From positions 1 through 21,000 of the IMG/VR virus record IMGVR_UViG_3300027861_000230: a stretch of DNA of 21,000 nt. One strand, given 5' to 3'. The notes beneath the pieces were generated by a model. That model saw only the letters and a program-made list of their open reading frames with translations. It was not told the DNA's origin and ran no database searches. Position 1 is the stretch's first letter. Each line of letters starts with the position of its first letter. Positions 2,347 through 21,000 of the stretch are shown here, one piece after another. This DNA comes from a virus. Both the position numbers and the translations under genes were made by a program.

Positions 2347-4032
2347 TTAAAATGCTCCTGTTGGCGAAGTGTTAAGCTTGAGGTTCTTGTCCTCTTTCGT
2401 TACCGTTGCCTCGGCGCCGCCTTCAGTCCGGATTATTATCTCACCCTGGCCAAGTTTAAAGTCTGGGGACATGATGGCCGCCTTTTCAGCAGCAGTGTAT
2501 GAGTTTGTTATTGCTCTATTTTCTGCTTCTTTTTTAGCAAGCTTCTCACGCGCTGTCTGCATTGATGCAGGAGAGTCCCACCGGCTTGGGTCCCACCCGG
2601 CAGAGTTCCAGCCTCCTATGTCAGGAAGGTCAAGAGCAGCGTTTCCAAATCTTTCTCTTGGAGACTTATTTTTATTCTTTAATGCTATAAGATCAGCAGC
2701 AACCTTAAATGCCTTAACACCATTCATAATTGCTGTTGCAACCGACCCAAATGCTTTAGCCACTGCCAACAGGTCATCTTTGCTGTCAACTATGCTTTTG
2801 ATAACATCACCAACATCAGCGGCAATCAGGTCCTCATTTGCTCTTATCCATTTAGTCATGTTCTCAATCATATCTTTCAAGGGGCCTTTATTGGCATTAA
2901 ATATAGAGAGCTTCACACTTTCAATAGAAGAGAAAAGGGCCTTTAAGCTTCCGGAAACAGTATTTCTTGTGATGTTGGCCATCTTGGTTGACTCACCAGA
3001 TACGTTTTTAAGCTCCTCGCGATAGCTCCGGAGATCCTTGACACCTTTTTCAAGGATAACCGATACACCGGCTATTGCACGCTTTCCAAAAATGGTTTCA
3101 ATAACAGCAGCGCGCTGGCCGGTTCCAAGGTTGTTAAGCTGTCCCTCAAGATCCCCAAGGACATCAACAACATCACGCATATTACCATCAGCATCCATTG
3201 TGCTTATATTCCAGCGTTTCATTATGCGTTGAGCATCAGCAGCCGGCTTGGCAAGTCTGAGGAACATGTTTTTGATTGTTGTTCCAGCTTTAGTGGCTCT
3301 GATGTTTCCGTCTGCCATCTTTCCGGCCAGAGCTGCAAAGGTTTCAATCTCTGCACCCGCCAGCTTTGCAGATGGTCCACCATCCTTTAGGGCTTCCGAT
3401 AAATCAAACATTGTATTCTTACTGGTGATAGCCGTCTTTGCCAGTACATCATTTACTCTGGCCAGGTTCTTTGATAGTTGGACGCTATCATCAGCCTTAA
3501 GATTAAATGATCCCAGAGCCCCGGTTGCTATGTCGGCGGCCTCTGCCATGTCAATCTGGGCAATTGTTGCCAAATCAAGGACACCTGTCAGAGCAGCAAC
3601 TGATTGATCAGCACTAAAGCCAGCCATTACCAGAGTATTTAATCCCTCTGCAGCTTGGCCGGCTGTAAATTCTGTGGATTTCCCTAATCGCCTTGCTTCA
3701 TCTGTAAGGAGCTTCTGAGTCCTGATAAACTTCTGGCTCTGTTGATCAAGGCCCCCAACCTTTACCGTTGCATTAACAATGCTTTGCTCAAAGGCCGCGC
3801 CAGTCCTAACTACATCAGCCGCTGCATAACCAACAACTGCAAATGCAGCAACACCAGCAACAGCAAACTTTTTAAACCCTTTGGAAAAATTGGCAAAACG
3901 TTTCCGGAGAGCTGAAACCTTTTTACCAGCAACTCTGGTAAACCGGCCAATCCTCTGCTGCATTCTGGAGACAGGACGACTGATCTTATCAATGCCCTTA
4001 AAGATTGCCTCAACCGAAAAACGTTTTGACAT
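2347..4032 (-). CDS. Phage tail tape measure protein
   Basis: 561 residues. It begins with a basic helical region, followed by a hydrophobic Ala/Val segment (residues about 57-75). A typical PhageMin_Tail core follows, with SIVNATVKVGGLDQQSQKF, TEFTAGQAAEGLNTLVMAGFSADQ and GTTIKNMFLRLA-type motifs. The C-terminal 130 residues are low in recognisable motifs and may be the end bound by the tail tip. Tape measure proteins set tail length and are ejected with DNA. At roughly 0.15 nm per residue (a known rule of thumb) this predicts a short tail near 85 nm. The ATG at 4032 has an AGGA site 9 bases upstream. It lies directly after the chaperone frameshift frame, as in other tailed phages. Confidence 0.9.
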   Translation of the reverse strand: MSKRFSVEAIFKGIDKISRPVSRMQQRIGRFTRVAGKKVSALRKRFANFSKGFKKFAVAGVAAFAVVGYAAADVVRTGAAFEQSIVNATVKVGGLDQQSQKFIRTQKLLTDEARRLGKSTEFTAGQAAEGLNTLVMAGFSADQSVAALTGVLDLATIAQIDMAEAADIATGALGSFNLKADDSVQLSKNLARVNDVLAKTAITSKNTMFDLSEALKDGGPSAKLAGAEIETFAALAGKMADGNIRATKAGTTIKNMFLRLAKPAADAQRIMKRWNISTMDADGNMRDVVDVLGDLEGQLNNLGTGQRAAVIETIFGKRAIAGVSVILEKGVKDLRSYREELKNVSGESTKMANITRNTVSGSLKALFSSIESVKLSIFNANKGPLKDMIENMTKWIRANEDLIAADVGDVIKSIVDSKDDLLAVAKAFGSVATAIMNGVKAFKVAADLIALKNKNKSPRERFGNAALDLPDIGGWNSAGWDPSRWDSPASMQTAREKLAKKEAENRAITNSYTAAEKAAIMSPDFKLGQGEIIIRTEGGAEATVTKEDKNLKLNTSPTGAF

Positions 4033-4035
4033 AAT

Positions 4036-4290
4036 TTAATTCCTATTCTTTATCTCGAGTATTTGATACTTTTTGAGCTTTTCTCTTTGGCTCTCATAAA
4101 GAAACCTGATTTCATAATCCTTTAATGTCCTGATGTCCCCCAGGCCCTGAAAGTCAAGTATTACCTGGGTGAACATTTCCTTGTAAACAAATGGCGCAAC
4201 GTGAGCCCCATCAGGAGCCCTCCAGTCCTCACCATTCCTTACAAGGGGAGTGAGGACTATCCCATTAAAAGCTTCATGACCGACACACAA
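4036..4290 (-). CDS. Tail assembly chaperone C-terminal (frameshift) frame, Mu gp42-position
   Basis: This reading frame (84 residues if started at the TTG at 4290) overlaps the end of the upstream gp41-like gene in the -1 frame and continues to a stop just before the tape measure gene. The only local start is TTG, with no Shine-Dalgarno sequence. The frame is closed upstream by TGA at 4300-4302. Tail chaperone genes in this position are classically made as a fusion by programmed frameshift. The best slip site I see in the overlap (4299-4257) is GCTTTTA at 4266-4272, which is not a perfect X-XXY-YYZ heptamer. The product ends in a basic KYQILEIKNRN tail. Its function as the frameshifted chaperone extension is inference from position and overlap. 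Confidence 0.7.
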   Translation of the reverse strand: MCVGHEAFNGIVLTPLVRNGEDWRAPDGAHVAPFVYKEMFTQVILDFQGLGDIRTLKDYEIRFLYESQREKLKKYQILEIKNRN

Positions 4291-4688
4291 AGACCAAGGT
4301 CAGGATCAACCATTTTGCTGAAAGTAGGGACTGCAGTGCCGGTCAAGCATGCCATCATGCTGAACAACTTATGCATTGTCTGAGATTCTTTGTGTTTGTC
4401 CATGGCCAGGATACTTGCTCCATCCCTAACCTTAAACGTAACTGAGTTGATATGGGAACTCTTTCGCATTGTGATGGTAATTTGTCCATCATCATCAATG
4501 GAAATGACGTTGCTGGCAATTGCCTTGACAACTTTCTTTTTTAGCCGCTTAAGCTCTGAAAGCTCCTCAGCATCAAGATCATCTTCGTCAAGGTCGATGT
4601 CTCGGAGTTCTGCCATCCGTTCAAATTCTGCCGTTGCAAAGTCCATCGAGTGATGAGCTTTTAGCACTTGTTTTGTTTCTTCAGTCAT
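4257..4688 (-). CDS. Tail assembly chaperone, Mu gp41-like
   Basis: About 143 residues from the ATG at 4688, preceded by AGGTGA 5 bases upstream. A GTG three codons earlier (4697) is also in frame but sits inside that ribosome site. The protein is acidic with a charged helical middle (DLDEDDLDAEELSELKRLKKK). It resembles the FluMu gp41 family, which lies between tail tube and tape measure genes. Such chaperones coat the tape measure during tail assembly and are absent from the finished virion. Its stop at 4257 lies inside the -1 frame of the next entry, as expected for a chaperone pair. Confidence 0.75.
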   Translation of the reverse strand: MTEETKQVLKAHHSMDFATAEFERMAELRDIDLDEDDLDAEELSELKRLKKKVVKAIASNVISIDDDGQITITMRKSSHINSVTFKVRDGASILAMDKHKESQTMHKLFSMMACLTGTAVPTFSKMVDPDLGLCVSVMKLLMG

Positions 4689-4729
4689 GATGTTCACCTG
4701 TTATTAGACTGTTGAAGGTTAACGGAAGA

Positions 4730-4749
4730 CTCCAGAACAATGTCCGGAG
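4730..4749 (-). other. Short RNA hairpin between tail tube and chaperone genes
   Basis: On the minus strand CTCCGGA pairs with TCTGGAG across the loop CATTGT, giving 7 pairs including one G-U. There is no U-tract after it, so it is not a standard terminator. It could protect or partly attenuate the message between the highly expressed tube gene and the low-level chaperone gene. The role is inference. Confidence 0.4.
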
Positions 4750-4765
4750 CCTCCCAGGAGAGAAA

Positions 4766-5149
4766 CTATTGACGCGTCAACCGGCCAGGACCAGACATGT
4801 CCAAAGGTTTTGTCTGGCTCTGAGTGCTGGTCTCTGCATCTCCAGTTATTTGGCCTGTTCCCTGGTATGTTTCACCAGAGGCCAAAGAAACTGAAATAGG
4901 ATAGTTATCCGTACGGTCCATGAGATCCTGCAAAAAGGTATCGTCATCGTTTGAATCGTCAACCTCGACGGAAACACCGCCTATTTTCCAAGGTTGACGG
5001 GTTTTGACTTGACGGGTAGACCCATCGCCATTTGCTTCCTGCTCATTTGTAAAACCGCCCATAAAGCGGCTTGCATCAGCATCAGCGGCAACGGCAAAAT
5101 TACGACCGTCGAGAGTTACTGATTCAATTGATCCTGCAACTGCTGGCAT
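4766..5149 (-). CDS. Tail tube protein, Mu gpM-like
   Basis: 127 residues, typical for the Mu-type tube family. The start MPAVAGSIESVTLDGRNF, followed by GGFTNEQEANGDGSTRQVKTRQPWKIGGVSVEVDD and a closing GQITGDAETSTQ segment, is characteristic of phage tail tube proteins that polymerise inside the sheath. AGGAGG upstream of ATG at 5149 is a strong ribosome site. The gene is adjacent to and downstream of the sheath gene, the standard order for contractile tails. Confidence 0.88.
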   Translation of the reverse strand: MPAVAGSIESVTLDGRNFAVAADADASRFMGGFTNEQEANGDGSTRQVKTRQPWKIGGVSVEVDDSNDDDTFLQDLMDRTDNYPISVSLASGETYQGTGQITGDAETSTQSQTKPLDMSGPGRLTRQ

Positions 5150-7337: not shown

Positions 7338-7723
7338 TATGCTTTATAGCTCCCCAATAAACAGGTAACGACTCCAAGAGCCCTGTCTGGATTGCTTTCT
7401 ATTACCTTAAAAGTATGGGCATTTCCATTGATATCATCAAATTCAATTACCCATGGTTTCTTTGTTTCATCAGCAATGCCCTCAGGGATCCCCAATCCAG
7501 CTGATGCCAGACTGGAGATCCTAAGTGCAACTGAAGCAAGGCGGCCAGAAACCAACTGCCCTGTATCTGGGTCAACAACAGCGCCAATATCATCACTCAA
7601 ACCCTTAAGAGTATCAACAGTTACTCCATTAGGATCAGTTACGATTATTGGCCAGCCAAACCCGCAAACATCATCTTCCATGATGGATGACAGGTCAGCC
7701 TCTGCTATTGTTCTTAAACCCAT
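7337..7723 (-). CDS. FII-like head-tail joining protein
   Basis: 128 residues beginning MGLRTIAEADLSSIMEDDVCGFGWPIIVTDPNG. This resembles small proteins found after the capsid gene in many Mu/lambda hybrid phages and likely corresponds to lambda FII, which joins head and tail. The body is beta-rich with the GRLASVALRISSL segment and a closing PWVIEFDDINGNAHTFKV stretch. Its start overlaps the stop of the upstream gene by one base and its own stop overlaps the next start, so three genes (8085 to 6666) are translationally chained. The joining role rests on size, position and fold style. Confidence 0.65.
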   Translation of the reverse strand: MGLRTIAEADLSSIMEDDVCGFGWPIIVTDPNGVTVDTLKGLSDDIGAVVDPDTGQLVSGRLASVALRISSLASAGLGIPEGIADETKKPWVIEFDDINGNAHTFKVIESNPDRALGVVTCLLGSYKA

Positions 7724-8085
7724 TATTTAGCCTTTACAATCAAGCCGTTTTTCTCATGAATGGCAAAGGCTTCCTTGCCGTTCGTGAAAAACTCGGGTTT
7801 AACTTCAGCACCAGGAGCAAGAACACCCTTAAGAGAGGTCACAGAACAACCGGCTTTAATGACATACTTGGATTCAGCAACTTCTGGAGTTTCCTTTGGA
7901 GTTTCCTCCTTTGGTCCATCAGCAACTGTGTCCTTGGCACTGTCACGTTTCTTGGCTTTTAGGTCAGATACAAGATCCGCCCAATCGGTTGAATTGAGAT
8001 CATCCTTTTTAGGGATAGCCATCTCAAGCCCAAGCTCTTTTACAAGCTCAATTACCGTTTCTCTATTCTCTTTTTTAGTAGGCAT
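7723..8085 (-). CDS. Two-part head protein, FI position, possible LEM-like helical N-terminus
   Basis: 120 residues in two parts. Residues 1-45 form a charged helical region (ENRETVIELVKELGLEM, then DWADLVSDLKAKK) reminiscent of HeH/LEM or SAP-like folds. After an acidic Pro/Glu linker (about 50-70), a small beta-rich C-terminal part follows (YVIKAGCSVTSLKGVLAPGAEV). Lambda FI, a packaging stimulator, has the same position between capsid and FII and a comparable helical N-terminus. Homology to FI is not shown. AGGAG about 10 bases upstream supports ATG at 8085. Confidence 0.55.
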   Translation of the reverse strand: MPTKKENRETVIELVKELGLEMAIPKKDDLNSTDWADLVSDLKAKKRDSAKDTVADGPKEETPKETPEVAESKYVIKAGCSVTSLKGVLAPGAEVKPEFFTNGKEAFAIHEKNGLIVKAK

Positions 8086-16327: not shown

Positions 16328-16358
16328 AAAAAAGCCACCTAATTTTATTAAGCGGCTT
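16328..16358 (-). terminator. Intrinsic terminator after the large terminase gene
   Basis: The minus-strand arms AAGCCGCTTAAT and ATTAGGTGGCTT form 12 consecutive pairs (two G-U) around an AAA loop, followed by six U. No U-tract follows on the plus strand, so it acts on minus-strand transcription only. Confidence 0.85.
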
Positions 16359-16395
16359 AATAGTGGTATAATCAATAGAAATGTTTTGTTTGTCT

Positions 16396-16474: not shown

Positions 16475-18475
16475 TCATTGCGCCGGTATTTCAAGTCTTG
16501 CAGCCATATACTCCCAGAACTCAGGCCAGACAACATCCTCTTTCTCATGCTGAACAACACACACATTGTAAGCTATGATATCAACCGCGCAGTGGCCATA
16601 GACAAGCAAATCCCAAAGCTCATTCTTGGCGCCGGACGGTCTATGCCAAGAGAATGACTCATTACCCTTGTTGTCCAGGCTCTTGACCTTTTTCTCAACT
16701 GTAAGCTCTTTAAGCTCTTTCTGAGTGATGTTTGATGGCGCATTAAAGTGAAAACGCCTTTGCTCTCCAGACTCTGGTTGCCAAGATCTCCGGAGAACAG
16801 GAGCCAACCGGTCCTTGTAATGATCAGCTGTGATATTATAACCAACGGTTCCAATCTTAGTCTTGAACTCTGAGAACTCAACAATCTTTGCAGCCTTTGT
16901 TGGCCGGTCTCTTCCGAGGATAGGAACAACACCAGAATCATAGTCAGAGCAGAACTGCAAAACAGTATCGTGGGCATATCCGGCATCAATCAAGGTGAGG
17001 TAAACATTATACTTGACACCATCATCAGCAACAAACTCAGTATCCTCTATAATTTCCCTAAGGTCTCCCCAGACAGGAGAATCAGGCTCAGTGCATGGAG
17101 TGTCTCCATTATCAAGATCAACCTCAAGCCTCTGGTAATCGATAACAAAGCAGCGGCCTCCAACAGTCCAGCCCATGACAGCAACAGCCAAGTTGTCTTT
17201 GTGAACATCAACCTGACATGTTAAAAACAATATTCTGCTAGTTGCAAACTCAATTGCAAACTTGTTGGGGATCTCTCCCTTTTTATAGCAGATCTGGCGA
17301 TGATATGAAACCACCTCAAGCCGGACACGTTCTCCGGACACTTCAAACGGCCAGGCAATGACATTGTTAAAGAAAACCTGAAACTCTGAGATAGACTTGG
17401 GCTTTCTGGCATCCATATCCCATGCCTCTAGGAAATCAGCAACCCTCTCACTCCATTTCTTGAAAGGACTGTAAAAAGCGGGAAGGTAATAAGACCTTAT
17501 CCCAGGCCGGACCGGCACTGATGTTGGCTTCCAGCATGCCCCATTGGCCTCTGATAGCATAATCTCTTTGTGGTAATCAAAATGCTCATGTCCACAATTC
17601 CGGCAAAGGTAACGGACCGACTCAGGAATAAGCAAGCCCTTTTCTGAATCCCAGACAAAGCCAAACTTCTTGCCGGTTTCTTTATTCTTGCCATACCATC
17701 TTGGCCCCTTCTCATGATCAAACTCAACTAGGGTCTGCTGAAAGCCACACTTGATACAGTTAAACATATAACAACGCTCATCACCGCGCCTAAACTGTTT
17801 GTAAATCTTGGAGGTCTGTTTGATGGTTGGAGTTGATCCCCTGAATATTTTCCTTACTTCCCAATACTGCTCACACCTGGCATCAGTCAGCTTGTCCGGA
17901 TCACCATCCTTACCAACACTGTCAGCCCATGCATCAATCTCATCCTTGAGAAAGACCATTATTGAATAGTTACGCATTTTGGCGGCGTTCTTTGCGCCAA
18001 AGGGTCTGATTGTAGTTCCTCCAACAAACTGGAGGAGAGAGTCTTTCTCTGCTGATTTATTATTACCTCCAGCAATATTGGCATATAAATGCCCTAATCC
18101 GGAGTCTCTGATCATTGGGATATAGTTATCAGCAACCCGGGACTCTGCCAATTCTTTATCAGCTGACATATACATCACCGGAGTTCCAGGAACTTGGAGA
18201 ACAAAATATAAAGCACCTCCCTCAAGTAAAGTAGAATACCCAACCTGGACACCCTTAAGCATGTTAATCTCTCTCACATTGCTGTTAACGTCAAAGCAAT
18301 TGAGGATCTCTTTCAGGAATGGAGTCACGTTGTAATCAATATGGCCTTTGTATCTCCCAATGGTTAAATATCTGTTTGCTTCATTCACCTGAACCGGTGT
18401 CAATATATCAAGATGATCTGTTAAGTCATCAACCTTGTCCAGTACCCAATCAGCGCCAACGTTTTCAAAGACCAT
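16475..18475 (-). CDS. terL: Terminase large subunit, lambda gpA family
   Basis: 666 residues, near lambda gpA (641). The N-terminal ATPase has the deviant Walker A-like MLKGVQVGYSTLL (residues 72-84) and a Walker B-like MVFLKDEID (173-181). A four-cysteine zinc ribbon follows (C239, C242, C290, C293), then the nuclease region with Asp422 in LTCQVDVHKDNLAV and further acidic residues. It cuts concatemeric DNA and drives packaging through the portal. GGAGGG 8 bases before ATG at 18475 is good, and the start overlaps the small-subunit stop by 11 bases. An intrinsic terminator lies downstream. Confidence 0.93.
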   Translation of the reverse strand: MVFENVGADWVLDKVDDLTDHLDILTPVQVNEANRYLTIGRYKGHIDYNVTPFLKEILNCFDVNSNVREINMLKGVQVGYSTLLEGGALYFVLQVPGTPVMYMSADKELAESRVADNYIPMIRDSGLGHLYANIAGGNNKSAEKDSLLQFVGGTTIRPFGAKNAAKMRNYSIMVFLKDEIDAWADSVGKDGDPDKLTDARCEQYWEVRKIFRGSTPTIKQTSKIYKQFRRGDERCYMFNCIKCGFQQTLVEFDHEKGPRWYGKNKETGKKFGFVWDSEKGLLIPESVRYLCRNCGHEHFDYHKEIMLSEANGACWKPTSVPVRPGIRSYYLPAFYSPFKKWSERVADFLEAWDMDARKPKSISEFQVFFNNVIAWPFEVSGERVRLEVVSYHRQICYKKGEIPNKFAIEFATSRILFLTCQVDVHKDNLAVAVMGWTVGGRCFVIDYQRLEVDLDNGDTPCTEPDSPVWGDLREIIEDTEFVADDGVKYNVYLTLIDAGYAHDTVLQFCSDYDSGVVPILGRDRPTKAAKIVEFSEFKTKIGTVGYNITADHYKDRLAPVLRRSWQPESGEQRRFHFNAPSNITQKELKELTVEKKVKSLDNKGNESFSWHRPSGAKNELWDLLVYGHCAVDIIAYNVCVVQHEKEDVVWPEFWEYMAARLEIPAQ

Positions 18476-19274
18476 CGTTGAGCCCCTCCAACTTTCGTTT
18501 TATCTCATCTTTCATTGGACGTATAAACTTAGAGATTGCATCCTGGAAGAAATTGGCCACCTCTTCCACATCACAGCCGGCCTTAAACTTTGGCTCTGCT
18601 CTGGATGCCATGTTCCTGGTACCATCGTTCAACAGTTTGACATGAGTTGAGTTGATGATGTCCAGAACCAATCCAAACAACGCCCGGTCAACCAGCTCCC
18701 CTGATCGCTTTTTGTTTTCAATCTGGATCTTGTAAATCTCTTCAAGCTTCTTTGTCCCGTCTGCAAATCCTTTGAACTGCATCTGGGATCCAAACATATT
18801 GAGAACCTCATTAAATGGGAGAAACTGAATCTTTCTGATGTCATCCCTCAGGTCATCCGGTAAACTCTGGACAAATGCCTCCAGATTAGAAAGAGGAGCC
18901 CCCTGCTTTTTCTCGGGCTTTGGTTTTGGTGGAACCTTCTTAACGGCTGGTTTCTTCCCGGGAACTTTCTTGGCTGGTTTCTTTTTTACTGGGGCCTTGG
19001 ATTTCTTAGGCGGTCTCCCCCTTTTGGCCGGCGCTTTCTTTGCAACTTTCTTGGCCGCCGGCTTTTTTACAACTGGGGCTTTCTTTGGAGCCTTTGCCGG
19101 TCCAACACCCTTCTCTTTCAAGTATGCCACAACGCAAGGATGAGAGGCATTAACAAACTTTCCCTGGACCGCTGCCTCCAGCCGCTTTCCGGAGGAGGTT
19201 GCCTTGGTGATTGCCATCCTCGAAACTCCGGCCAGCTCTGCCAACTTAGCTTTGCTTATTAAATATTGCATCAT
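18465..19274 (-). CDS. terS: Terminase small subunit-like protein with histone-H1-like linker
   Basis: 269 residues in three parts. Residues 5-55 form a helix-turn-helix like lambda Nu1-type small terminases (SKAKLAELAGVSRMAITKATSSG). Residues about 57-124 are a Lys/Ala/Pro-rich stretch, roughly 40% lysine, with an AT-hook-like KRGRPPK (84-90), similar in composition to histone H1 or AlgP. Residues 125-269 are helical and acidic/basic mixed. Position just before terL supports the terminase role: it would recognise the packaging site. The basic linker is unusual for Nu1-type proteins. ATG-ATG at 19274 has AGGA about 10 bases upstream. It overlaps the preceding small gene by 29 bases. Confidence 0.75.
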   Translation of the reverse strand: MMQYLISKAKLAELAGVSRMAITKATSSGKRLEAAVQGKFVNASHPCVVAYLKEKGVGPAKAPKKAPVVKKPAAKKVAKKAPAKRGRPPKKSKAPVKKKPAKKVPGKKPAVKKVPPKPKPEKKQGAPLSNLEAFVQSLPDDLRDDIRKIQFLPFNEVLNMFGSQMQFKGFADGTKKLEEIYKIQIENKKRSGELVDRALFGLVLDIINSTHVKLLNDGTRNMASRAEPKFKAGCDVEEVANFFQDAISKFIRPMKDEIKRKLEGLNDGL

Positions 19275-19419
19275 TTATTGTTGTCCTGGTTATCATTCCA
19301 TGGCCACGCTGTACAATAAACTGCTTGGCCTGTTCCAAGCTTGCTGTTGCCTGGGTGACTCTCTTACCATTAATCATTACATCACACACATATACTGTTG
19401 CGGGTTTACCTTCACTCAT
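19246..19419 (-). CDS. Small hypothetical protein, 57 residues
   Basis: Starts ATG at 19419 with GGAGG 6 bases upstream; that site lies within the end of the preceding gene, and the start is one base after its stop. It encodes MSEGKPATVYVCDVMINGKR, then a helical segment and a C-terminus running into the small-terminase start (29-base overlap, different frame). The beta-beta-alpha look and tight chaining argue for a real gene. The function is unknown. Confidence 0.65.
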   Translation of the reverse strand: MSEGKPATVYVCDVMINGKRVTQATASLEQAKQFIVQRGHGMITRTTINDAIFNKQS

Positions 19420-19420
19420 T

Positions 19421-19636
19421 CTATACCTCCAAGACCTTTGTAGTTATCCATTTATCCCTCTTTGCAATATCCTGCTCAAGGCGGCCAATAGCCATTCTAA
19501 GAGACTCTATCACTTCGGCTTGAGCATTCATATTGCCCTCCTGCAAACTAACCTTGTCCTTGAGGGTGTCAACCTTGACTTCATTGGCCTTCATCAACCG
19601 GAGGTGGTCAGCCTTTCTCATTGTGTGTTGGTTCAT
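19421..19636 (-). CDS. Small coiled-coil protein, 71 residues
   Basis: Predominantly helical with heptad-like hydrophobic spacing (VKVDTLKDKVSLQEGNM, then VIESLRMAIGRLEQDIAKRD), consistent with a coiled coil. ATG at 19636 overlaps the preceding stop as ATGA. No recognised family. The position before terminase genes is typical for small packaging or late accessory proteins, but nothing in the sequence proves this. Confidence 0.6.
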   Translation of the reverse strand: MNQHTMRKADHLRLMKANEVKVDTLKDKVSLQEGNMNAQAEVIESLRMAIGRLEQDIAKRDKWITTKVLEV

Positions 19637-19965
19637 ACTTTCTCTCTCTCCATGGTGTTTAGGTTAATAGCCGCAAAATTATCCCCTGACTCTCTGAGGG
19701 ATGCTTTTAATTTATAAGCCTTCTTTAGTCTCTCTGATGCTATGGCCAACGGTCCGGCCAATTTGAGATACTGCTTTTGGTTGATACAGTTACGAGCTCT
19801 TGAGACAATGTAATCATAATTAGATTTAGCTATGGCCATAATCATATTTGGCCCAAGTATAACCTCCCTGTGAGCAACTGGGATTGGCTCGTTTCTGATT
19901 ACATCAGCAAGCCTGGATATATCTCCAAGTATGTCATCACTGCTTTTGGTTTCCCAACTACTCAT
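19633..19965 (-). CDS. Small hypothetical helical protein, 110 residues
   Basis: Begins MSSWETKSSDDILGDISRLADVIRNE and ends ...REKV. It is mostly helical with many Lys/Arg, and there are no cysteine pairs, signal peptide or membrane span. AGGAG 5 bases upstream supports ATG at 19965. It is the first gene after the structured element at 19989-20113, which lies entirely in its leader, so it is the gene most likely affected if that element is cis-acting. The function is unknown. Confidence 0.6.
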   Translation of the reverse strand: MSSWETKSSDDILGDISRLADVIRNEPIPVAHREVILGPNMIMAIAKSNYDYIVSRARNCINQKQYLKLAGPLAIASERLKKAYKLKASLRESGDNFAAINLNTMEREKV

Positions 19966-19988
19966 ATTCTCTCTCCTGTTAAGTTAAA

Positions 19989-20113
19989 AGATCCGGCTGG
20001 TTGCCTAAAACGCGAATTTCTAAGGTCACGCTGCTTGGAGAATTTGCAGTCAAATGTCTCTAATACTTGCGTGAACTAACGGCATCGGAGCCTCTCCGAA
20101 ACCAGCCAGATCT
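19989..20113 (-). ncRNA. Structured RNA candidate of about 125 nt (leader element or small RNA)
   Basis: The gap between methyltransferase and the next gene folds almost completely on the minus strand. P1: AGATCTGGCTGGTT (20113-20100) pairs with AACCAGCCGGATCT (20002-19989), 14 pairs with one U-G that would be a C-A mismatch on the plus strand. P2: TCGGAG-AGG-CTCCGA (20099-20085), stacked on P1. P3: TCACGC (20074-20069) with GCGTGA (20031-20026), extended by broken pairs. P4: GAGA-c-ATTTG, loop ACTG, CAAAT-TCTC (20060-20038), one bulge. TTTT follows P1. I do not recognise a known RNA class or tRNA. A small mobile inverted-repeat element is an alternative. Confidence 0.65.
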
Positions 20114-20117
20114 AAAT

Positions 20118-20879
20118 TCAAAATAATTCCTGTTGAGCTGTCTCTCTTTCTATACGCTCCATCATGGCGGTGTAATAGTCTTTATCCAATTCTGAGCCGG
20201 TTAGATCAAAGCCCATGTAATAACAGGCTATGGCTATTGAACCGCTTCCAAGGTGTGTGTCAAGTATCTTTGCATGATAAGTGCCGGTACCATTGCAATC
20301 AGTGCAAAAAACAGGGTTAAAGTCATCGTCTGGCATTTCTCCGCCGCCCCTACACCTTTTGCATTTTGATTTACCGTAGTTTTCAAGTAGCCATTTATAA
20401 AGAGCAACAGGCTTTTGTGTTGGGTGAATACGATGTTCTTTGTTTTTCATGTCACCCTGGAGCATTCCTTGCCATTGAAAACGAAACTGTCTAACTGCTG
20501 TCTTGAACGATGTCCATGCAAGTTCACAATCTGCGAAGTCATTATTTCCATTAATCTTATCCCACACTATCCAGCATGAGCTTGATAGTGAAACGCCTAT
20601 ATTATCAATAAAATGGTTTGCTCCCCATATTATCTGACTTTTAGATACCCTTCGCAATTCATAAAAATAGTTTTCATCTGGAGCTTTTAAGTCATATCCT
20701 GCAAATGATTTATAATCCTTTGAAGTCGCTAATACTGATCTAGCCTTGTTGGTCGAACCGCTCTCGCCTATTCCATAAGGAGGATCAACAATAGCCAAAT
20801 CAAAATGGTTGTCTGGATATTCTTTCATCAGCTCCAGGCAGTCCATGTTGCACAAATCTAACTGGCCGTACTCTTTCAC
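20118..20879 (-). CDS. DNA methyltransferase (N6-adenine/N4-cytosine type) with zinc-finger insert
   Basis: 253 residues from GTG at 20879 (AAGGAGA 8 bases upstream). Catalytic motif DPPY is at residues 32-35, and the AdoMet-binding motif (DTHLGSG, 207-213) comes after it, the beta-class order. IHPTQKPVALYKWLLENY before it is typical of phage and prophage members. Between these two motifs is an insert with CKRCRGGG (C173, C176) and CTDCNGTG (C192, C195), matching the DnaJ CXXCXGXG zinc-finger style. The enzyme likely modifies phage DNA to evade restriction or regulates genes. The target site cannot be read from sequence. The stop lies 5 bases before the structured element. Confidence 0.88.
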   Translation of the reverse strand: MKEYGQLDLCNMDCLELMKEYPDNHFDLAIVDPPYGIGESGSTNKARSVLATSKDYKSFAGYDLKAPDENYFYELRRVSKSQIIWGANHFIDNIGVSLSSSCWIVWDKINGNNDFADCELAWTSFKTAVRQFRFQWQGMLQGDMKNKEHRIHPTQKPVALYKWLLENYGKSKCKRCRGGGEMPDDDFNPVFCTDCNGTGTYHAKILDTHLGSGSIAIACYYMGFDLTGSELDKDYYTAMMERIERETAQQELF

Positions 20880-21000
20880 TGTATTTCTCTCCTTGGTTTA
20901 CAAATAACTATGCATTAATAAAATAAATAATTCAAGTGGCTGGTTTACAAAAAAATAAAATTAGCCTCAAATCGCGAGGAATGGAGGGCTGAATCAAAAT
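20880..21000 (-). promoter_or_regulatory. AT-rich leader with possible promoter and flanking direct repeats
   Basis: On the minus strand a possible promoter reads TTGAAT (20935-20930), 17 bp, CATAGT (20912-20907), 4 of 6 matches in each box. The 11-mer TGGTTTACAAA (plus strand) occurs at 20894-20904 and 20941-20951, one on either side of it, like repressor sites. AATAAAATTAGCC at 20954-20966 is a near miss to the 31-bp operator motif. The region is cut by the window edge. Confidence 0.4.

Follow-up and report, generated by a model that had tools for sequence, protein, structure and literature searches.

A branched RNA fold between the methyltransferase and packaging genes of a contractile-tailed phage, with a possible role as a translational leader

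What is a 125-nt sequence that folds into a branched RNA doing between a DNA methyltransferase gene and the genes that lead into a phage packaging operon? The window considered here, the whole stretch of 21,000 nt that was analysed, represents the left part of the genome of a contractile-tailed phage, and its GpA-type terminase, portal, major capsid and tail sheath genes all lie on the minus strand. Read along that strand from the genome end, the order is methyltransferase, element, the orphan gene p110, a 71-aa gene (p71), a small gene starting at 19419, the small and large terminase genes and a terminator-like hairpin, and the element shares the strand of all the neighbouring genes. It occupies a 152-nt gap between the methyltransferase and p110, the sole long gap in this leading part, beginning 4 nt after the methyltransferase stop codon and ending 23 nt before the p110 start, an interval that contains the p110 ribosome site.

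20118 to 20879, minus strand: DNA methyltransferase, N6/N4-type, 253 aa (PF01555; PHROG DNA methyltransferases)
19989 to 20113, minus strand: the whole structured element, 125 nt, a three-way junction (fold z -4.0 and in-context pairing)
19633 to 19965, minus strand: p110, a 110-aa orphan gene downstream of the element (helical prediction by AlphaFold, modelled alone, of low confidence at pLDDT 64)
18465 to 19274, minus strand: terminase small subunit
16475 to 18475, minus strand: terminase large subunit, GpA family (PF05876, PF20454)
about 16333 to 16359, minus strand: terminator-like hairpin with a U-run at the end of the terminase unit, read from the gap fold

The first-pass annotation had placed the element in the leader of a gene of unknown function, and p110 is indeed an orphan, with no relatives in Pfam, PHROG or IMG/VR. 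The same annotation had described a 14-pair closing helix (P1) with a single mismatch-like pair that reads U-G on the minus strand only, a perfect 6-bp hairpin, a long arm with a 9-pair hairpin of its own, and a terminal TTTT, and each of these is recovered here.

20100 to 20113, minus strand: 5' strand of P1, AGAUCUGGCUGGUU
19989 to 20002, minus strand: 3' strand of P1, AACCAGCCGGAUCU
20085 to 20099, minus strand: P2 hairpin, UCGGAG-AGG-CUCCGA, -6.7 kcal/mol alone, which holds a GGAGAG ribosome-site motif
20023 to 20077, minus strand: P4 arm, UCACGC/GCGUGA, with the apical 9-pair hairpin at 20038-20060

P1 agrees to the base, its one irregular pair reading A-C on the plus strand; P2 closes a 3-nt loop over its six perfect pairs; the nine pairs of the apical hairpin (GAGA-c-AUUUG / CAAAUUCUC) are interrupted by one bulge; and the TTTT is made up of the final U of P1 followed by UUU. 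An intrinsic terminator at this end of the element was rejected, the U-tract being too short to convince and none being called by a terminator search. The last pair of P1, U14-A112, is formed only about half the time because a further helix, P3 (UGCC/GGCA), competes for A112. In longer transcripts P1 and P4 pair with a probability near 1, and across five longer contexts the pairing probabilities of P1, P2 and P4 are all high; the minimum-free-energy (MFE) structure lacks P1 in one of the five, by 0.4 kcal/mol.

The element has an MFE of -47.1 kcal/mol on the minus strand and -44.9 kcal/mol on the plus strand (z -4.0 on both), minus-strand shuffles of it give -31.6 +/- 3.9 kcal/mol, and none of 200 shuffles folds as well. 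Dinucleotide shuffling of the gap produced a helix as good as P1 once in 3000 trials, and the 152-nt gap as a whole has a z of -3.6, against -0.8 to +0.7 for two other long gaps and the gap between cos and the methyltransferase. The fold is genuine and above chance for its gap. Energy by itself would not single it out in the window, because a better z is seen for four other minus-strand windows, which lie within coding sequence or overlap it; position and clean boundaries do. Among 1045 sliding 125-nt windows of the minus strand the element ranks fifth by z, and it is the only one of the top 25 to be centred on a non-coding gap. The windows at 7576-7700 and 4716-4840 (minus strand; z about -5.7 and -5.6) lie in or overlap the coding sequence of structural genes.

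The reading that we favour, tentatively, over the alternatives considered below is that of a cis-acting intercistronic leader, carried on the methyltransferase-terminase transcript, that tunes translation of p110 ahead of the terminase genes. Two further features bear on it, both of them, like the fold and its position, computed directly from the DNA: a hairpin that competes with P1 and a ribosome-site motif with its short ORF.

19968 to 19991, minus strand: competing hairpin, UCUUUU...GAGAGA, over the p110 Shine-Dalgarno, -4.8 kcal/mol
20050 to 20085, minus strand: candidate leader ORF of 11 codons, MPLVHASIRDI, with its AUG directly after P2, 6 nt after GGAGAG, and its stop in the apical loop

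P1 and the Shine-Dalgarno-hiding hairpin compete because the last three nucleotides of P1 (19989-19991) belong to both. By prediction the p110 Shine-Dalgarno is about 0.6 open while P1 is in place; occupying or removing the 5' strand of P1 brings this down to 0.3 or less on average, and to near 0 at the core of the site in a longer context. When the element is shuffled, the p110 site is 0.42 open on average and reaches at least 0.60 in 17% of shuffles, so that the switch is a proposal open to test rather than a proven design. The earlier suggestion of a riboswitch-like or protein-bound leader stands as far as a structured minus-strand leader is concerned, by its fold and its pairing in context, while for an expression platform the -4.8 kcal/mol hairpin is a weak candidate.

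P2 and the bases that follow it read GGAGAG-GCUCCG-AUG. Four genes, those for the methyltransferase, p110 and p71 and the one at 8085, also use GGAGAG as their ribosome site, 5-9 nt ahead of the start codon; only one further GGAGAG-before-start motif is found on the minus strand, within a gene. In the folded state the GGAG of the 11-codon ORF is paired (unpaired probability 0.05 or less), and folding of the element and translation of the ORF would therefore be mutually exclusive. Judged by its sequence the ORF may be translated, or it could be a product of chance, at roughly 1% per gap by a post hoc estimate.

From these predicted structures we infer how the element would act in the cell, what would open P1 and how the terminase genes may be affected. 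When formed, P1 would hold AUCU, at the end of its 3' strand, away from the p110 Shine-Dalgarno, and the site would stay largely open. Were its 5' strand occupied, the freed UCUUUU would pair with AGGAGAGAGA and hide the p110 ribosome site. Candidates for the occupier are a ligand, a protein and a ribosome, the last either translating the 11-codon ORF or terminating on the methyltransferase; since the methyltransferase stop codon lies 4 nt before P1, a terminating ribosome would cover the 5' strand. P1 would in this way keep translation of p110 on, in a manner responsive to upstream translation or binding, and the element may additionally shield this long untranslated interval against Rho and RNases.

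Two kinds of known leader invite comparison. Riboswitch leaders with a translational expression platform share with the predicted fold of the element a multi-helix junction closed by P1 and, before the gene, an alternative anti-Shine-Dalgarno hairpin that overlaps the 3' strand of P1; unlike them, the element has no Rfam riboswitch match, known ligand or conserved core, and its platform is weak (-4.8 kcal/mol, with a 3-nt overlap). Leader-peptide attenuators of the erm type likewise hold a short ORF with a good ribosome-site motif inside mutually exclusive structures before a gene, and such an ORF and site are present here (GGAGAG-N6-AUG, 11 codons), but the site is buried in P2, and opening is predicted to switch the downstream gene off, not on. 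To our knowledge the peptide MPLVHASIRDI is not like known arrest peptides. The leader reading is supported by an element that fills its gap exactly, from just past one stop codon to just before the next ribosome site; by a P1 that is far above chance in the gap, with its U-G pair only on the strand of the neighbouring genes; by the predicted drop in openness when the 5' strand of P1 is removed; and by a GGAGAG and AUG arranged like the phage's own ribosome sites. Against it stand the weakness of the competition relative to shuffles, the ease with which purine-rich ribosome sites pair with any U-run, the burial of the short ORF's ribosome site, the stronger folds in or overlapping coding sequence, and the lack of a homologue and hence of covariation.

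The last point comes from searches of collections in which records very close to the window may be missing. The covariance search for homologues that the first-pass annotation had proposed gave no match to any of the 4227 Rfam families, either at gathering thresholds or at E up to 5, and with 0 genes called by ARAGORN for tRNA or tmRNA in the element its failure to fit the element to a tRNA or to a riboswitch class that it knew is borne out. With blastn the element had no match among 50,697 phage records or 72,556 plasmid records. Around relatives of the methyltransferase and terminase, about 165 loci gave no match by blastn, nhmmer or a custom single-sequence covariance model, and 47 whole records of related phages gave none by the covariance model, which detects fairly close relatives only, making absence weak evidence. 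Pattern scans of IMG/VR for the ends of P1 and for P1 with P2 came back empty, and a scan for the P4 arm returned chance matches only, apparently in coding sequence (L169-L171). Identity to the closest IMG/VR methyltransferases does not exceed 62%, and for the closest terminases it is about 55%, with a single genome match at 54%; the small terminase as a single query found no relatives. The gaps that follow the methyltransferase in 80 relatives hold a few long hairpins (L006, L021, L027), of sequence unrelated to the element. L027 (4251-4352) and L021 (4395-4491) contain domains of ~100 nt closed by 16-22-bp helices that end at, or a few bases from, the ATG of the next gene; these are possibly start-site sequestering structures, and they had no match in phage records.

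The element is an orphan structure, and one sequence without relatives cannot establish a new class. Its P1/P2/P4 architecture, as predicted from a single sequence, matches no RNA family catalogued in Rfam, but a new RNA class is not claimable because no relative was found and there is hence no covariation. It would be a long shot to see in it a new class of phage RNA switch, in which a three-way-junction leader would sense a ligand, a protein or leader-peptide translation and set expression of the packaging operon.

Of the rival explanations the one that survives best, although we think it rather unlikely, is an element for mRNA processing or stability, either an RNase III-type site or a protective structure that would separate the methyltransferase and terminase messages. 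A 13-14-bp helix that follows directly on a stop codon and precedes a free ribosome site, in a transcription unit of single direction, would suit such a role, as would the terminator-like hairpin with a U-run that closes the terminase unit downstream. Phage T7 has intercistronic RNase III sites, which resemble the element as stable RNA structures between co-transcribed phage genes. RNase III, however, prefers a double helix of roughly 20 bp, which is longer than P1, and the T7 sites are each one long irregular hairpin, unlike the branched three-way junction found here.

It strikes us as unlikely that the element is processed into a small RNA, or that it is a new class of aptamer for a ligand or protein that goes beyond a simple switch. 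In favour are its well-defined three-way junction and structured loops, which persist in longer contexts and match nothing in Rfam; but no relatives were found, no promoter was found directly upstream of the element, and the 17-nt unpaired stretch at its nt 92-108 argues against a very compact aptamer. The anti-CRISPR RNAs (Racr) that mimic type I-F CRISPR repeats were also considered, as the P4 region holds the motifs found at the ends of the I-F repeat, GTTCAC...CTTAGAAA. This candidate was rejected: the ends alone match and the middle hairpin does not, and 3 of 300 shuffles align as well, which over 18 comparisons is not significant.

The proximity of the genome end raises the question of packaging and of how the element came to be where it is.

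20965 to 21000, minus strand: almost certainly the packaged genome end, cos-type, ATTTTGATTCAGCCCTCCATTCCTCGCG, aligning with GTTTTGATTCnnCCGCGCGnCCCTCGCACA at the contig ends of dozens of relatives

The sequence GTTTTGATTCnnCCGCGCGnCCCTCGCACA opens dozens of contigs from uncultivated phages (loci L085-L164, position 1) and, as judged by sequence, is a cos-type terminus common to this GpA-terminase group. Because the minus strand of the window begins with the matching ATTTTGATTCAGCCCTCCATTCCTCGCG, its right edge is almost certainly a packaged genome end of the lambda-type cos kind. From GTTTTGATTCnnCCGCGCGnCCCTCGCACA to the small terminase gene the relatives have mostly 60-190 bases; here the methyltransferase, the element, p110 and p71 look like extra cargo between genome end and terminase genes. 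One relative (L110, 883-1500) has a homologous methyltransferase, 39% identical, with the small terminase gene on one side and the large one on the other, a further point of insertion for this cargo. Between genome end and methyltransferase the direct repeat TTTGTAAACCA occurs twice (20894-20904 and 20941-20951, minus strand), and relatives have paired TTAAC-like repeats at the corresponding place; these are perhaps candidate binding sites for the small terminase.

The element itself lies ~0.9 kb inside the genome end. It is not the cos site, as the terminus motif at 20965-21000 falls outside it, and the packaging-related structure once suggested is disfavoured both by that distance and by the lack of any match to the element in relatives that keep the end and the terminase. 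The pRNA of phi29 is a parallel, being about 120 nt long, a three-way junction and near one phage genome end. Its partners are a packaging ATPase of the phi29 type and genome ends capped by protein, whereas this phage has a GpA/lambda-type terminase and a cos-type end, and the Rfam pRNA model gave no match.

The cargo arrangement also bears on a relic or selfish insertion without RNA function, be it a miniature mobile element, a recombination site or a decayed cassette boundary acquired with the methyltransferase gene, which we consider improbable. Most relatives run straight from genome end to small terminase, so that the methyltransferase, element, p110 and p71 look inserted, and P1 amounts to 14-bp terminal inverted repeats. 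The mobile-element alternative allowed for at the outset, with copies at unrelated loci, is not supported, however: there is one copy in the window, the exact end pair is absent from IMG/VR, and blastn found none in phages or plasmids. Nor is there a clear target duplication, only TTT on both sides, and a simple inverted-repeat element would not need the internal arms P2 and P4. Integron attC sites, of 57-141 nt, resemble the element in that they directly follow a stop codon and are bounded by imperfect inverted repeats. They were rejected because the R''/R' boxes are absent, with neither RYYYAAC (5') nor GTTRRRY (3') in the arms, the ends are GGTT...AACC and there are no extrahelical bases. 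In Tenacibaculum phage JQ (L168) the gaps between small genes (704-866, 1482-1527, 1669-1693, 1800-1925, 3919-4095 and 4330-4520) contain dispersed imperfect inverted repeats, CAACGTACTTGTATATGGTTAGTAGC ... TAGCTATTAACTATATACGGTGTTG, of a family found in Polaribacter and Cellulophaga phages too, and these look like cassette boundaries or recombination sites.

Coincidental folding of an unconstrained gap, for which one might cite the other equally stable folds in the window and a feature picked by eye from 21 kb, is very unlikely given the rarity of a P1-like helix in shuffles of the gap (1 in 3000) and the contrast with the ordinary z of the other gaps.

We return to the intercistronic leader as the favoured reading. 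If the proposed switch is not real, what is left is one further orphan fold in a phage gap. Regulation of the packaging stage in phages has mostly been described at the level of transcription, through antitermination. Should the switch be real, a phage packaging operon would have at its head a control point that works at the RNA level, and a ready test construct of about 190 nt comes with it.
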